Source: a virus. Taken from it: a stretch of DNA of 34,421 nt. Under the pieces are notes generated by a model, which saw only the letters and a program-made list of their open reading frames with translations, had not been told where the DNA came from and did not search any database. The first letter of the stretch is position 1. Each line of letters starts with the position of its first letter. Below are positions 6,574-32,078 of this stretch, in pieces. A program made the position numbers and the translations under genes. The stretch lies in IMG/VR virus record IMGVR_UViG_3300048026_000375, positions 1 through 34,421 of that record; one strand, written 5' to 3'.

Positions 6574-7829
6574 TAACTTGCCCACGTTTTAGTTGCTGAG
6601 AAATTTAATGCATTAAATTCCATTCTATCGTTTAGTTTAACGGCTCCACCGTCTACACCAAATGCTACAAATCCTTCATGGTTTGTAACTCTGTATCCAT
6701 TTTCTGTTTTTACAAATGTTCCAATTTTATCTACATTACTTAATTTTTTAATTAACATTAGTTTAGCACTTATTATACGACGATATACTGCCAATGTCAA
6801 TAGTAACGTATTACTATTATCTGCTAAAAATTGTTTTTGTTGTTCAATTTTATCTATACGTTTTTGTGCCGCAGGACTTTCTGCACCACCTTTTAATTTT
6901 TCAATTTCTTTATTCATTTTATCAGTGTAATAATTCATAAAGTTTTCTAAAAACTTTGTAGGTTCACCAACTTGTTCACCAGCTCTTACATTGTTATTAA
7001 TAAATGGTTTAATAAATTTTGCAAATTCTGCCGATAATACTGCATCCATTTTAGTACCTACTTTTTTAAGTGTAGTACGCCCTGTTGCAATAGTATCATC
7101 TATGCCTTTTTCTTCACCTGGAGTAAGTGTTGCAATCCCCGAAACATCTTTATAATTAGCATCATCAAACCATACATCTGGTGTTTCTTGTAAACTTCTT
7201 ACACTATAACCAAAACTTGCAGTCATTTCTGATAGTGTAGCACCTGTGTATTCTGTATGAAATACTATTCCAATTTTTGCTTTACCGACACGTTTACCTA
7301 TAGCACTATCAACTGGCACTGCATATGTAATAGTGTTAGGAGTAAATGTATAACAGTTGTCATCACCTACGTCTTCAGTTTTAACATCACCTGGGCCAAA
7401 AAGGAAATCGCCTTGTACAACTGTTCCTATGCCTAATTTAGGTAATAGTTTAAACGCCATTAATAATTTTGCTTCTAATGAAGGTTGTTCAGAATACCAT
7501 TCTTTAATCTGTGCTACTGATTTAGCAACTTTAGGTGTATTTGCATTAAACACTGATTTAGTGCCTACAAAGAATTTACTATCTTCTGGATCTATTCCAC
7601 AAATAATTGCAGGAGCACCGTCCCACTTAACAGTAATTTTACCTTCTGGTTGTCCACCTTCTAATAATCCTTTAACTGCATCTAAATAATCAAATGCTCT
7701 TAAGGCACCTTTGTATCCTTCATTAAAGATTAAATCTTCAACGTGTTCTAAATGCGTGTTTTTACCTTCTGCTTCATTAAGAATATTCCAATGATGCTTG
7801 TTAGGTTCAAATATTTCTGTAATTAACAT
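6573..7829 (-). CDS. Conserved phage protein with nucleotidyltransferase (DNA/RNA ligase-like) motifs
   Basis: 418 aa. This T4-like marine phage family is normally annotated hypothetical. Residues 66-73 read TVKWDGAP, matching ligase motif I KxDG, where Lys (K68) is the nucleotide-bearing residue. VVQGDFLF (137-144) fits motif III. NHEGFVAF (383-390) fits motif IV (EGxV). GGAVKLND (394-401) fits motif V. Between III and IV lies a long helical insertion (about 190-380) with a charged coiled segment. The N-terminus has a leader ending ILNEAEG, a possible prohead-protease site. It starts at TAATG coupled to the 746-aa gene. Whether it joins nucleic acid ends, caps something or has lost activity is not visible. 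Confidence 0.65.
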   Translation of the reverse strand: MLITEIFEPNKHHWNILNEAEGKNTHLEHVEDLIFNEGYKGALRAFDYLDAVKGLLEGGQPEGKITVKWDGAPAIICGIDPEDSKFFVGTKSVFNANTPKVAKSVAQIKEWYSEQPSLEAKLLMAFKLLPKLGIGTVVQGDFLFGPGDVKTEDVGDDNCYTFTPNTITYAVPVDSAIGKRVGKAKIGIVFHTEYTGATLSEMTASFGYSVRSLQETPDVWFDDANYKDVSGIATLTPGEEKGIDDTIATGRTTLKKVGTKMDAVLSAEFAKFIKPFINNNVRAGEQVGEPTKFLENFMNYYTDKMNKEIEKLKGGAESPAAQKRIDKIEQQKQFLADNSNTLLLTLAVYRRIISAKLMLIKKLSNVDKIGTFVKTENGYRVTNHEGFVAFGVDGGAVKLNDRMEFNALNFSATKTWAS

Positions 7830-16260: not shown

Positions 16261-16979
16261 AATTTTGCTTCTTTTAATGCATCTTTAACTATTGCAGTTT
16301 CTACATGATACTTAATAAAATTCTTTCTCCAAAAATCTGGATCAATATAACTATAAATTATCGATAGTTGTTCTTGATTTAATTTAGATAACAAGTTCTG
16401 TCCTGTTTCACAATTAAAAATAATCCAAGGACTGACTCTACCATTAACAATATGACTACAAATTTTATTTGGATTTGCCGCAAAGAAATATGTATGTAAA
16501 TGTACACCATGTTCGTCTGCCCAAGATTCCATAGTTTTTAAACTTCTTGTTAATGCATCTTGCCAAGTTTCAGTTCTTAAGTGTGCTTCTAAATATGCTT
16601 GATAATGTTTATCTTGACACCATTGATCTAATTTAATATTATTCCTAATAACATATGTAATAAAGGCACTAGTATTAATACAACTAATATTAATCATATG
16701 TTTACCAAATTTTACAAATGCATTATAATAGTTACTGTTAACAAAGTCGCCATAGGTCTTTTTTGCTCCATCGCCGCCTTGTGTCATTTCATAAAATTTT
16801 AAATAAGATTGTAAACCTAATTGTACACCTTTATCTTTTTCTTGTTGCCAACGACGTTTTTGTTCGCAAACATGGGTAGACAAAGTTTTTTCTCTACTAA
16901 ATCCTCTTTGACAATATTTACATACAAACGGTTTATCACCTGGTTTGTAGTTCTCTCTTGTTTGTTTTGCTATAGCCAT
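16257..16979 (-). CDS. Conserved phage protein with N-terminal C2HC zinc finger
   Basis: About 240 aa from the ATG at 16979 (a GTG at 16991 is possible). KPFVCKYCQRGFSREKTLSTHVC gives C20, C23, H36 and C38, a classical single zinc finger. The remaining 200 residues are helical and Tyr/Trp-rich with no enzymatic motif (for example HMINISCINTSAFITYVI, FWRKNFIKYHVETAIV). The finger suggests nucleic acid binding. The gene sits directly upstream of the DnaE-like gene and overlaps it by four bases, so the two may work together. I recognise the family as conserved in T4-like marine phages, without known function. Confidence 0.65.
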   Translation of the reverse strand: MAIAKQTRENYKPGDKPFVCKYCQRGFSREKTLSTHVCEQKRRWQQEKDKGVQLGLQSYLKFYEMTQGGDGAKKTYGDFVNSNYYNAFVKFGKHMINISCINTSAFITYVIRNNIKLDQWCQDKHYQAYLEAHLRTETWQDALTRSLKTMESWADEHGVHLHTYFFAANPNKICSHIVNGRVSPWIIFNCETGQNLLSKLNQEQLSIIYSYIDPDFWRKNFIKYHVETAIVKDALKEAKL

Positions 16980-16987
16980 TAATGTTA

Positions 16988-17503
16988 TCACAGTCTTAAA
17001 TTCTTTTCATGGTATTGTTTAATACTTTCATTCCAACCTTTAAAAATCTTTCTCTTAACGAAAATATCATTATAATCGAATAATAATAAATTGTCAATCT
17101 TTTTAGAAACTTTTTCCACTACTTCATTATAGTTATCCAAGTGCCGTTGTTTAACTTTCTTTTTACTTTTTCCACCATAACTTTTAATATCTTTAATATC
17201 TGTAACATATTGTAATGTTTCTAAATCACTTATTGTAATAGCCCATGCTTCTTTACAGTTAAATTCATAATTATCTAAATAAAAATCAAGAGGATTATGA
17301 CAACCTACTAATTCAGCACTTTCAACACTATGTATATCGTCCATGTTATCAATTTGTGCTACACTAGGAAACGGTGTACTATCATATAAATTATTATGTA
17401 TTTCACAAGGAACATTTTTTATATCTCCCCATGTAAACAAAGACTGAAGAAAGTTGCCTCCAGAACCTGGATACCAAAGTAAGAATAATTTACAATCTAT
17501 CAT
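16988..17503 (-). CDS. Sulfotransferase-like P-loop protein
   Basis: 171 aa. The N-terminus LFLLWYPGSGGNFLQSLF is the phosphate-binding loop of sulfotransferase-type proteins (compare YPKSGTTWL), not a standard Walker A kinase loop. Near the C-terminus NLLLFDYNDIF resembles the closing strand of such domains. The classical second PAPS signature (RxGxxGDW type) is not seen, so the substrate is uncertain. It starts at ATGA overlapping the preceding stop. Related proteins in marine phages are usually listed as hypothetical. Confidence 0.5.
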   Translation of the reverse strand: MIDCKLFLLWYPGSGGNFLQSLFTWGDIKNVPCEIHNNLYDSTPFPSVAQIDNMDDIHSVESAELVGCHNPLDFYLDNYEFNCKEAWAITISDLETLQYVTDIKDIKSYGGKSKKKVKQRHLDNYNEVVEKVSKKIDNLLLFDYNDIFVKRKIFKGWNESIKQYHEKNLRL

Positions 17504-20803: not shown

Positions 20804-21998
20804 TTATTTTCCCTAAAGTATAATAACAAACCCAAGCATCATTTACGAATGTTACACCTGTTTGTCCATTAAGAATATTGAATCCGTACTGTCTAAACTT
20901 GCTTATTGAATTTGTACTAATAACAAAATCCGGCTTCCAATCATGTTTTACCTTAGGATTAGAATACCTTTGTATACTATCTATTATAGCAAATTTAGTA
21001 TCGGAAGTCAATGACTTCTTACAGTTAAAGTGGTGCTGATTGTTCTTCAACTGCACTGTACAGACGTCTTTGCCCAGTTTAGACACCAGAATTACCAGGT
21101 TCTGAGCAAGTTCTTCTGTCATAGTTCTACCGTCTATAATAAACCCAATACGTTCAAATCCAAACTCATTAACTGCTGAATCGTATATTTGTTCTGGTGT
21201 GTATTCTGTCCAATCAAATCTACCGCCTCTGTCTTTAAGTATCTTTGTACCAATGTTTGATAGTATAATATTTGAACTATTATTAACAATATCTAAATTC
21301 TGATCAGCCGCTGAAACAATTTGCTCTATACGTTTTTTAGATGACATATTATTTACCCAATATTCTTTTAGGGTATCGGGTGCATTTCGTAGCACACACT
21401 TATCATCTTCAATTACTAATTGTATTGCATAATCACTTCTATTGTTTAATATATTTTTACACTTTTTGTACACATCTTTAAATGTATCAGAATAATCAAA
21501 ATCATATTTAGAAGACCAGTTATACAAAGACATTAGATTATATTCATTATATGAAGTTTGGTATTGTTTAGTTTCTTTATCAAACCCAGTACGAATTGAT
21601 CTTAATTTTTTTGCTAACGAGTTTATTTCTCTAATCATTTCTTTGTTATATGGAAACTTAATAGTAATAATATCTTCGTCAATGTCTATAAATTTTGTTC
21701 TGTCTACCTGTCGCAACTCACTTGACCACACCGGGTTTTCAACTATCGAAGTTACATCAATACCTAAACGTTTATATTGTCGTGTGTACTTGCTTACTAA
21801 TTTAATTGTCAGAGCTCTTTGCCTGTCACTCAAACCTTCTCCTTTGTTTATACTACGAACGGCATTGTTAACAAAGCCAACATCATAGTTTGCCAAACTA
21901 ATAGGCTTGGATACAAACTTTGGAGGTACCGGACTTGCTATTACACCTATTGCTACTTTCAGGCAATACTCGAAGTCCTCTGGATTATATAATTGCAT
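20778..21998 (-). CDS. Unknown protein translationally coupled to UvsW
   Basis: 406 aa, no Walker motif. Residues about 50-150 (GLSDRQRALTIKLVSKYTRQY, ending in KFPYNKEMIREI) resemble the N-terminal module that precedes the helicase core in some phage SNF2-type helicases. The middle is helical. The C-terminal part has IGFIIDGRTMTEEL and DFVISTNSISKFRQYG, which look like alpha/beta strands of a RecA- or TOPRIM-like sheet without catalytic residues. It overlaps uvsW by 26 bases, so it may act on the same branched DNA. It starts behind AAGGAAATGAT-ATG. I cannot name it. Confidence 0.5.
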   Translation of the reverse strand: MQLYNPEDFEYCLKVAIGVIASPVPPKFVSKPISLANYDVGFVNNAVRSINKGEGLSDRQRALTIKLVSKYTRQYKRLGIDVTSIVENPVWSSELRQVDRTKFIDIDEDIITIKFPYNKEMIREINSLAKKLRSIRTGFDKETKQYQTSYNEYNLMSLYNWSSKYDFDYSDTFKDVYKKCKNILNNRSDYAIQLVIEDDKCVLRNAPDTLKEYWVNNMSSKKRIEQIVSAADQNLDIVNNSSNIILSNIGTKILKDRGGRFDWTEYTPEQIYDSAVNEFGFERIGFIIDGRTMTEELAQNLVILVSKLGKDVCTVQLKNNQHHFNCKKSLTSDTKFAIIDSIQRYSNPKVKHDWKPDFVISTNSISKFRQYGFNILNGQTGVTFVNDAWVCYYTLGKINATSKITD

Positions 21999-25315: not shown

Positions 25316-25344
25316 ATAATACACTCTGTAATTCAAAAAGTCAA
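25316..25344 (-). promoter_or_regulatory. Early promoter TTGACT-N17-TATTAT
   Basis: TTGACT (25344-25339) and TATTAT (25321-25316) on the minus strand, 17 bases apart, followed by AAGGAG and the start at 25282. Confidence 0.7.
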
Positions 25345-29807: not shown

Positions 29808-30821
29808 TTACTGTTGTCTTGAACGAATCATTGCTAAAATATCTTCAGCACGTTGTCCTGATTCACCACCTGTTGCCGCTGGGGCCGGTGTTGCCACTGG
29901 TGCCGCAACCGGAGTTGCAACTGCTTCAACTTGTGGAGCAGACACAGTTTCTGCTGGAGCAGATGTCTGAGTTGCAGTAGGTGTTGGCGTTGGAGCCGCT
30001 TCTACTGTTTTAGCACTACCATTGTCCGGTAGTTGTACTCCTGAAGGTCGGAAATATTGTCCAAACTTTTCAGAGTCATATGCCTTGCCATCAACACTAT
30101 CTTCAAACATTTGTTTGATAATGCCAACTTCGGCTTCATTAGGCTTTTTAGGAAGGAAATCATTTAAGTCATATAGACCATATGTTTCAATCGCTTTTTG
30201 TTCTTCCTCAGAAAGAGCAGTTTCTTTTCTTGCCCAATTAGAAGTTGAATAATCTGCGTAACCACCTTTTGAAGTTTTTACAACACGGAAGTCAATTCCT
30301 TTGTTGCTATCTGTTGGTAATTCTTCCATATCAGGATCCATTAAAGATGCCTTGATAATATTAAATAATTGTGGTCCCATAATAAACCTACGAATTGGAT
30401 TCTCTGGAGATTCCTCATCTAATGGATTATCACGCACAAAACCTTGGAATACATAAGATTTCTTTTTCCAATACTTACGACCCATGTCTTCTAAAGAACT
30501 ATCTTTAAACCATGGTCTAACTTCTGCTAGAATTGGACAAGAACCTACTGGTTCCCACATTTCCATACAAGGTACTTGAACAGTAATAGGTTTACTATCT
30601 ACTTGTCCTTTAATACCCTGGAACGGTAAACGAATCATTGCTCGTTCGGCCCAGAAAAATGTGTTTTGTGAATTGGAATCTGGAAGAAAACGAAGTGTTG
30701 TACTTTGTCCTTCTGAAATGTTCCAATGTGGGAAAATTGCGTTGTCGCCGCCGCGGTTTCCGCCTTGTGAGCGGGTATCCTGTGCTTGTAGTTTCGCACG
30801 GATGTCTGCTAATGATGCCAT
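29808..30821 (-). CDS. 32: Single-stranded DNA-binding protein gp32
   Basis: 337 aa. It has the N-terminal LAST-type basic region (about 1-25), then the OB-fold core: NISEGQSTTLRFLPD, FFWAERAMIRLPF, VPCMEMWEPVGSCPI, RPWFKDSSLEDMGRKYWKKK and YVFQGFVRDNP. Only two Cys are seen near the T4 zinc site (VPC and SCP), as in marine relatives, so zinc binding is doubtful. Residues about 265-320 are a Pro/Ala/Thr-rich linker. It ends in a short helix (AEDILAMIRSRQQ) instead of a long acidic tail. It coats DNA at forks and binds UvsY and polymerase. Confidence 0.92.
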   Translation of the reverse strand: MASLADIRAKLQAQDTRSQGGNRGGDNAIFPHWNISEGQSTTLRFLPDSNSQNTFFWAERAMIRLPFQGIKGQVDSKPITVQVPCMEMWEPVGSCPILAEVRPWFKDSSLEDMGRKYWKKKSYVFQGFVRDNPLDEESPENPIRRFIMGPQLFNIIKASLMDPDMEELPTDSNKGIDFRVVKTSKGGYADYSTSNWARKETALSEEEQKAIETYGLYDLNDFLPKKPNEAEVGIIKQMFEDSVDGKAYDSEKFGQYFRPSGVQLPDNGSAKTVEAAPTPTPTATQTSAPAETVSAPQVEAVATPVAAPVATPAPAATGGESGQRAEDILAMIRSRQQ

Positions 30822-30861
30822 AATATATGCCTCTCTTTTGCCTAGTTATGTTATTAATAAT

Positions 30862-30900
30862 ATTGCCTATGATAGCAATTTGTACACCTTCCTGATGTAC
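30862..30900 (-). promoter_or_regulatory. Two adjacent hairpins in the gp32 mRNA leader
   Basis: In the minus-strand leader GTACA-(loop with AGGAAGG)-TGTAC (30900-30882) is followed by ATTGC-UAUCAUAG-GCAAT (30879-30862). They lie about 40-80 bases before the ATG. T4 gp32 represses its own translation by binding a structured leader, so these are candidates for the same control. Confidence 0.4.
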
Positions 30901-30908
30901 TGCTAACA

Positions 30909-30937
30909 ATTATATTTATCTTCTTATCCAAAGTCAA
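30909..30937 (-). promoter_or_regulatory. gp32 promoter TTGACT-N17-TATAAT, overlapping late-like GATAAATA
   Basis: TTGACT (30937-30932) and TATAAT (30914-30909), 17 bases apart, a near-perfect sigma70 promoter. GATAAATA (30920-30913) overlaps the -10, giving a possible late promoter at the same place. Confidence 0.75.
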
Positions 30938-30967: not shown

Positions 30968-31191
30968 ACAACTAACTGTTCGGAGGGCCTTGCTGTGAAC
31001 TCACCCCCAACTTTCTAATAGCAGATCACATCTATTTTTTGCAAGGTTTAGATATGAAATTTACTAGAACCACCTCCTCTTAAACCTACCCACTCGGGCG
31101 CCTAAAAAGAATTAGTGTGCGTTACCCCTCTGCCGAAGAGTTGTTCCGCCACAAACTCAAAAGTTTTATAAAGACTTTTGTGTTAGTTGTT
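30968..31191 (-). ncRNA. Candidate structured non-coding RNA, unknown family
   Basis: The gap 30822-31245 has no gene. On the minus strand, from the expected start of transcription, ACAACTAAC (31190-31182) pairs perfectly with GTTAGTTGT (30976-30968) some 205 bases later, and AATAATT on its 5' side also matches across a two-base bulge. Inside are the hairpins CAAAAGT/ACTTTTG (31180-31174 and 31164-31158), CTCT-UCGGC-AGAG (31140-31128), AGGTTTA/TAAACCT (31087-31081 and 31050-31044) and CCTTGC/GCAAGG (31046-31041 and 30993-30988). The last two share bases, so they may be alternatives. GC content is clearly higher than in the flanks. No terminator was found. I do not recognise a known family. 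Confidence 0.55.
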
Positions 31192-31198
31192 AATTATT

Positions 31199-31227
31199 AA
31201 TATACAGTATTGGATAGTCAAAGTCAA
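31199..31227 (-). promoter_or_regulatory. Promoter of the candidate ncRNA, TTGACT-N17-TATATT
   Basis: TTGACT (31227-31222) and TATATT (31204-31199), 17 bases apart on the minus strand. The predicted start near 31192 is exactly where the closing stem of the structured region begins. Confidence 0.65.
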
Positions 31228-31245: not shown

Positions 31246-31635
31246 TTATAATTTACCAGAATTCCGCATATTTGCACGGATTTTTGTTGCACTAATGTTA
31301 TGTATTTCTTTTCCTAAGTCATGTTCTGTAAATGTGTAACCCACACCTCTGCCATAACTTATGTCAATAATATTAGGTACTTTCATAACAATATACTCTT
31401 GATTCATTGTAAATCCATGCTTTTCTAAACCATTGCGTATATTGACTACAACTTGGTTAAAATCAAAAGGATTATCAGTATTACCCATGCCGGCATCTGC
31501 TCCTTGTACATCTCTAACCATAATAATTACTTGTCCAGATTGTGCTAATGCACGTTTAAATAATTCTGTATGACCATCGTGCCATGGTTGCCATCTACCT
31601 AACATTTGTGTTGTTGGCTTCTTCCAGTCAAACAT
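31246..31635 (-). CDS. Nucleotidyltransferase (CTP-transferase-like)
   Basis: 129 aa. GRWQPWHDGHTELFKRAL contains the HxGH motif (H19-H22), and ISATKIR (114-120) is the second signature of the superfamily; together they mark a complete small nucleotidyltransferase. It is coupled by TAATG to the APS-kinase-like gene. The substrate is open: an adenylyl- or cytidylyltransferase for a sugar, sulfate or coenzyme precursor. It is the last gene of the right-hand operon. Confidence 0.8.
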   Translation of the reverse strand: MFDWKKPTTQMLGRWQPWHDGHTELFKRALAQSGQVIIMVRDVQGADAGMGNTDNPFDFNQVVVNIRNGLEKHGFTMNQEYIVMKVPNIIDISYGRGVGYTFTEHDLGKEIHNISATKIRANMRNSGKL

Positions 31636-32078
31636 TATAGCCTCCCTGTAGGTTTATTTTCTTTTCTAAGAATATAATTTTTTATAACTTCTGATAGTTG
31701 TGCGTGTGTATCATTAAACCAATCTGCTACATGATAATCGTAATTAAGTGGATCTTCAAACATAGCATTTGTGTCTTCGTAACGACCTTCTTTTATAGTA
31801 TTCATCCAAACTGTATAATCTGGATTAAATTCTTCCCGTGCTTTTTTAGTAGGACATATAAAATCAGCAACTGCAATTTTACCTGCCATTACAACCCCGT
31901 CTGCTAAATGACGCATACGTTGGGCTTGTCTTAAACGACCTTCTAAACTAAAGTCCCAATCATTATAAGTTTTGCGTACTTCGTCTGCATTAATGTGTAT
32001 TGCACCGAGTAAGTCCGCCATTGGCTTTGCTAGTGTAGTTTTTCCACTACCAGGCAAACCAAATATTAAAATTTTCAT
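31635..32078 (-). CDS. APS-kinase-like (CysC-like) P-loop kinase
   Basis: 147 aa. It has FGLPGSGKTTLAKPMADLL (Walker A 7-14), HINADEVRKTYNDWDFSLEGR with the DxxR substrate region typical of adenylylsulfate kinase, RMRHLADGVVMAG, and VADFICPTKKARE. It is shorter than bacterial CysC (about 200 aa), with a divergent C-terminus. APS kinases make PAPS, the sulfate donor. It overlaps the sulfotransferase-like gene by four bases (ATGA), which supports a sulfur link, but related phage kinases could act on other substrates. Confidence 0.72.
   Translation of the reverse strand: MKILIFGLPGSGKTTLAKPMADLLGAIHINADEVRKTYNDWDFSLEGRLRQAQRMRHLADGVVMAGKIAVADFICPTKKAREEFNPDYTVWMNTIKEGRYEDTNAMFEDPLNYDYHVADWFNDTHAQLSEVIKNYILRKENKPTGRL

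Follow-up and report, generated by a model that had tools for sequence, protein, structure and literature searches.

The manA motif (RF01745) has been a riboswitch candidate since 2010 and is an orphan family whose members are sited in potential 5′ UTRs (PMC2864571). Rfam had already remarked on its frequent adjacency to tRNAs, as cited in PMC3692125. The reports on manA that we consulted are computational and give it no function. Against this background we describe a region of a marine phage genome that almost certainly encodes a structured RNA related to manA; it lies in IMG/VR record IMGVR_UViG_3300048026_000375, of which the whole analysed stretch of 34,421 nt is hereafter called the window. 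We conclude that this RNA is a divergent manA subfamily with an extra closing helix, found in phages with a jumbo-like gp32. What is new here is the branch itself, its extra helix, its siting in such phages and the evidence that it brings to the question of whether manA acts in cis or in trans.

Locus and fold of the RNA

The RNA is flanked by a nucleotidyltransferase-like gene upstream and a gene for a gp32-type single-strand DNA-binding protein downstream, the next gene after gp32 being that of a UvsX/RecA-type recombinase (Table 1). The nucleotidyltransferase-like product also matches phrog_3462 (NMN adenylyltransferase, E 8e-5) and scores slightly under the cut-off of the Pfam model CTP_transf_like. 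Among annotated phages, the relatives of this gp32 belong mostly to jumbo phages (PA5oct, RaK2, Atu_ph07 and their kin) and not to the classical T4-like cyanophages.

Table 1. Coordinates of the RNA, its structural parts and its neighbours in the window, and of two canonical manA examples
Feature	Position	Strand	Basis
Nucleotidyltransferase-like gene, upstream of RNA	31246-31635	minus	phrog_395 cytidyltransferase, E 8.7e-8
Putative promoter of RNA, TTGACT-17-TATATT, predicted start ~31191	31199-31227	minus	10/12 consensus match, sequence only
Structured RNA, divergent manA type	30968-31191	minus	fold z -3.91; low-score Rfam manA match; R1/R2 matches
Terminal helix, 5′ arm ACAACUAAC	31182-31190	minus	compensatory changes in L003, L094
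Hairpin 1, CAAAAGU...ACUUUUG	31158-31180	minus	compensatory changes among lineages; equals manA first hairpin
Closing stem of manA core, 5′ arm GUUUG	31152-31156	minus	4/5 pairs covary on both sides, 97.8% paired, family
Conserved 5′ core UGGCGGAACAACUC...GAGGGGUAACGC with two short helices	31119-31151	minus	invariant or near-invariant columns in alignments A3/A5
Internal hairpin P3	31075-31110	minus	predicted in all lineages; little variation, weakly tested
Internal hairpin P4 (GGUUCUAGUA...UAUUAGAA)	31013-31069	minus	U-A replaced by G-C in L094, the single both-side change
3′ hairpin GGGGG/CCCUC	30983-31008	minus	4/5 pairs covary on both sides across family, 100% paired
Closing stem of manA core, 3′ arm CGAAC	30978-30982	minus	as for 5′ arm
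Terminal helix, 3′ arm GUUAGUUGU	30968-30976	minus	compensatory changes in L003, L094
Putative separate gp32 promoter, TTGACT-17-TATAAT	30909-30937	minus	11/12 consensus match, conserved in L003
gp32-type single-strand DNA-binding protein gene, downstream of RNA	29808-30821	minus	phrog_1192, E 2.1e-68
Canonical cyanophage manA (RF01745), P-SSM2	142837-143034		
Canonical cyanophage manA (RF01745), S-SSM7	151363-151563		

A first-pass annotation had proposed about 224 bases without a gene but with a structured RNA, and this stands: no ORF of at least 30 aa occurs on either strand within 30968-31186, and homologues, compensatory changes and conservation above both neighbouring genes speak for the RNA. 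The same annotation held the region to be richer in GC than its flanks, which is true of the adjacent non-coding flanks (0.415 for 30968-31191 and 0.456 in the core, 30978-31157, versus 0.28 and 0.24, with 0.34 for the whole window) but not of gp32 (0.41). Its near-consensus promoter ahead of the RNA and its separate gp32 promoter downstream both reappear as sigma70-type, promoter-like sites; the former is kept in the related loci L003, L094 and L275 and ends 8 nt ahead of the terminal helix. A search of the window for TTGAC-N18-TANNNT returned 7 matches against 2.4 expected, and the 1-kb promoter scan by itself returned 5 against 4.0, which is not above chance.

The minus strand of the region has a folding energy of -70.0 kcal/mol; its 200 shuffles average -53.8, and none is as good. 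The nine-base pairing of the ends, claimed at first pass, holds: the terminal helix that it forms is fully paired in L003 (ACAACUAGC/GCUAGUUGU) and L094 (UUCAACUGC/GCAGUUGAA) and loses one inner pair in L275. Its proposed AATAATT/AATTATT extension exists, but most of it precedes the probable start site, and the L094 lineage lacks it. As a feature of the whole family the terminal helix is unsupported (50 of 500 partner permutations are as good); within the window lineage the helix is real. The annotation had also foreseen internal hairpins of which two exclude each other; these prove to be the competing pairings GUGGCG/CGC.CAC and GUUUG/CGAAC, whose folds lie 1.2 kcal/mol apart and of which comparative evidence picks the latter. 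The proposed architecture is the unconstrained minimum-energy fold in L094 and 1.2 kcal/mol above the minimum in the window. The GUUUG/CGAAC closing stem is an ordinary nested helix and not a pseudoknot.

Nucleotidyltransferase, RNA and gp32 follow one another in the same order in L003, L094/L137 and L275, and a near-identical copy of the window (L002, 99%) likewise has the RNA ahead of gp32. Over the 180-nt RNA core, identity to the window is 100%, 98.3% and 90.5% in L003, L094 and L275, respectively, versus 83%, 82% and 80% for gp32 and 81%, 75% and 70% for the nucleotidyltransferase; in each, the RNA is better conserved than both neighbouring genes. Among 50,697 phage records, BLASTN with the region as query yielded short chance matches only.

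Three side observations concern the surrounding sequence. First, other strong sigma70-type matches lie at 6772-6800, 17069-17097, 20983-21011 and 25316-25344 on the minus strand and at 16614-16642 on the plus strand of the window, and may serve other transcription units of the phage. Second, the nucleotidyltransferase-like gene adjoins a P-loop kinase-like gene (together 31246-32078, minus strand), and the two match different halves of phrog_10255 (kinase, 230 positions); judging by these matches, the pair is a predicted split two-domain enzyme. Third, in the gp32 leaders of L004-L031 and in the window stretch 30822-30908, AGGCA/AGGCAA words are repeated and a promoter is conserved, including in phages that lack the RNA; this perhaps relates to self-regulation by gp32.

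Relationship to the manA family

At gathering cut-offs, Rfam returned no match in the window and 20 gp32 loci, whereas a permissive search aligned manA with the window RNA end to end (positions 1-192) at 13.1 bits (E 0.44, with 4227 families searched); we regard its remaining weak matches (E >3) as chance. The Rfam search that had been suggested at first pass thus comes out empty at the cut-off, but not below it. Orthologues of the window locus (L275, L276 and L302) match the Rfam manA model at 22.9 bits, with E-values of 1.7e-6 to 1.1e-5. Both the window and these orthologues miss the gathering cut-off of 55.2 bits, which is a database threshold and not a structural feature; hence, we treat the RNA as a subfamily or divergent relative that falls outside the Rfam family in its present delimitation.

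Relatives were first gathered from IMG/VR phage contigs with a pattern for the 5′ core, and a wider pattern gave many more: 58 of the 72 wider-pattern contigs match the Rfam manA model with E <=0.01, 36 of them lie over the cut-off, and the scores form a continuum down to 17.6 bits. In a second pattern scan, the inspected matches beyond those of the first resemble glycine-rich coding DNA and were discarded. The canonical manA RNAs of two named cyanophages score 181.6 (P-SSM2) and 123.6 bits (S-SSM7). We built two models from manA RNAs. R1, comprising 22 manA RNAs with the window lineage left out, though with two (L128 and L129) that came from the window's own pattern, matches the window RNA over its full length (30978-31157) at 47.4 bits, E 2.7e-11. 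R2 is restricted to 20 of these, each matching Rfam manA with an E-value far below 1e-9 and each obtained independently of the window's own pattern; it matches the same interval over the full model at 41.5 bits, E 1e-9. The alignment of R2 was fitted with R1, and the short calibration makes the E-values rough. Since the relatives other than the named cyanophages were gathered by 5′ core patterns, the E-values and the family statistics overstate that half of the RNA. The gathering patterns exclude the closing stem and the 3′ hairpin.

The search for covariation among homologues that had been suggested at first pass found compensatory changes, with the family core covarying strongly. In an alignment of 27 sequences, pairing reaches 97.1% over the 18 core pairs, 12 of which change on both sides. 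The covariation score, 0.579, drops to 0.214 when the alignment is shuffled and to at most 0.163 with the partners slid; helices 2 and 3 of this count are the two short helices of the 5′ core. The closing stem, the 5′ core helices and the 3′ hairpin, all supported by covariation, occupy their manA positions in the window, and the first manA hairpin, 5′ of the closing stem, is present there as well. The region between the core and the 3′ hairpin does not align between clades; in the window it holds P3 and P4. As for the setting, manA is known from marine T4-like phages and metagenomes, the relatives found here come from IMG/VR phage contigs, and the window carries gp32 and UvsX.

R1 gave a single match, of E 0.07 and taken as chance, in 80 further sources (456 kb), and a scan of 84,980 species genomes with the subfamily pattern recovered no relative besides a match in an alphaproteobacterial MAG (L304), rejected as chance. 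In 47 gp32-bearing contigs, the Rfam manA model matched just once, at 5 bits. R1 did not find the RNA in 78 gp32 loci of other phages, which marks it as a cassette of the window lineage that does not lead gp32 genes in general.

Autonomous RNA or gp32 leader

Several lines of evidence bear on whether the RNA is a transcript in its own right, as the first-pass annotation had held. In addition to the two flanking promoters and the closed terminal helix, L094 has UUUUUUU directly after that helix. Canonical cyanophage relatives carry TTGACA-16/17-TATAAT ending a few bases 5′ of hairpin 1; of 31 distinct relatives, 18 have a correctly spaced -10-like box, whereas control positions have one in 20% (binomial p 5e-6, an optimistic value because the members are related). 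A U-run follows the RNA in six of the 31, against 6% in controls. Further, the manA of S-SSM7 ends where a tRNA-Gly begins; other manA-type RNAs are flanked by tRNA-Thr and tRNA-Ala (L252), lie immediately 5′ of a tRNA-Asn (L257) or sit within tRNA clusters (L085, L088 and L099). By count, 4/31 distinct members adjoin a tRNA, with 1.0 expected, an enrichment that is suggestive only; the count misses an intron-split tRNA and one near-duplicate. The genes downstream of the relatives are mutually unrelated (transaldolase, pyrimidine-dimer glycosylase, DUF6561 and a Pam3 gp33-like gene). Taken together, the flanking promoters, the lineage's terminal helix, the U-run of L094, the relatives among tRNAs and the unrelated downstream genes incline us to regard the window RNA as autonomous, with moderate confidence. 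Against the earlier claim of independence, no terminator is recognisable in the sequence of the window copy, making read-through into gp32 possible.

The main alternative is a cis-regulatory gp32 leader, riboswitch-like or protein-sensing, in which transcripts from the upstream promoter would carry the RNA and the second promoter would give an RNA-free gp32 mRNA. It agrees with the listing of manA as Cis-reg in Rfam and its placement in potential 5′ UTRs by Weinberg et al. 2010 (PMC2864571), with the missing terminator, with the siting before gp32 retained in all four lineages found, and with the many relatives that lie leader-like, 10-50 nt ahead of an ORF, with a Shine-Dalgarno-like site. 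However, a leader should have no promoter between itself and its gene, and a promoter-like site, conserved in L003, stands between the RNA and the gp32 start codon; the RNA is closed by its own helix and followed in L094 by a U-run; the 78 gp32 loci searched in other phages lack it; and its relatives abut tRNAs and precede unrelated genes. We consider a leader unlikely, while keeping it as a serious minority view because of the unterminated window copy and the many relatives just ahead of an ORF.

A functional element on the plus strand, or a DNA element such as an origin beside gp32 and uvsX, is very improbable: replication and recombination genes do adjoin the locus and the plus strand beats most shuffles (z -2.48), but folding favours the minus strand (z -3.91), the conserved helices repeatedly contain G-U pairs when read in the minus sense, and the promoters here and in the cyanophage relatives point in the direction of the RNA. 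Still less credible is a wholly new class resembling manA by chance or convergence, the novelty claimed at first pass: there is no Rfam match at gathering cut-offs and P3 and P4 fail to align with the middle of canonical manA, but R1 and R2 match full length at E 1e-9 or better, the orthologues match Rfam manA itself (E 1e-6 to 1e-5), the same two covarying helices occur in the same places, and the intermediates L128, L129 and L084 bridge the window form and manA.

Returning to the autonomous RNA, we advance the following mechanism, which as a whole we hold to be rather probable, its transcription, trans action and binding being inferred. A sigma70-type promoter would start a transcript at ~31191, which would fold as a manA core: hairpin 1, the closing stem, the GUGGCGGAACAAC/GGGGUAACGC internal-loop element and the 3′ hairpin. 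The 9-bp terminal helix around this core would give a compact, end-protected RNA of ~220 nt, produced during infection and working most likely in trans. Its invariant unpaired core (GAAYAA, GGUAA-G) would bind a protein or other ligand, and its siting ahead of gp32 would reflect the replication-gene region and not gp32 control.

The surroundings of some relatives offer observations of their own. A boxA-like GTTCTTTAACAATTTA lies just upstream of the manA-type RNAs in L088 (180-194, plus), L099 (6529-6543, plus), L085 (4215-4229, minus) and L087 (260-274, minus), and a boxA-like CTTTGAGAACTTAACAATTTTG upstream of that in L263 (near 1482, plus); four of the RNAs so preceded sit in tRNA clusters. 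The likeness is to boxA, an antitermination signal in ribosomal RNA operons. In L087 (347-539, minus) a group I intron (RF00028, 70.7 bits) just upstream of the manA-type RNA apparently splits a tRNA gene, with the tRNA 3′ end GGTTCGAATCC. In L249 the manA RNA is immediately followed by ACACCCTTCTAGGGTGTATTTTTTT, a hairpin and U-run that resemble an intrinsic terminator.

Extended to the family, a tentative reading, to which we give slightly less than an even chance, is that manA-type RNAs, widespread in phages, are driven by promoters of their own and act autonomously in trans, and not as riboswitches. Some would be produced as part of tRNA transcripts and some closed off by a terminal helix, and the window would be a new branch that displays the autonomous form most clearly. 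A divergent branch with its own promoter, a closed helix and relatives in tRNA clusters gives a concrete reason to doubt the cis-regulatory label. Its features make testable predictions about transcript ends, and the assembled alignments would allow much wider searches for the family. If manA-type RNAs do act in trans, they would form a common but uncharacterised part of how marine phages infect their hosts.

Comparison with known systems

Large, ornate RNAs of bacteria and phages, namely GOLLD, ROOL and OLE, are orphan, structured and partly phage-associated like the window RNA, but much larger, and Rfam scans of the window matched none of the three. Canonical manA is far closer. The window RNA shares with it hairpin 1, the closing stem, the 5′ core GUGRCKGAAYAA...GGUAA-G and the 3′ hairpin, as well as a similar length, a putative promoter of its own just upstream and an occurrence in marine tailed phages. 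In contrast to canonical manA, it has an extra 9-bp terminal helix, carries P3 and P4 where the canonical form has its middle domain, reaches 13 bits when the cut-off is 55.2 bits, and is sited before gp32 in phages with a jumbo-like gp32. Between the two stand L129 (L090), L128 (L098) and L084 from uncultured phages, which are significant to manA or R2; they differ from the window in their surrounding genes and in a terminal helix that is shorter or doubtful, and have a window-like GUGGCGGAACAAC...GGGGUAACGC core.
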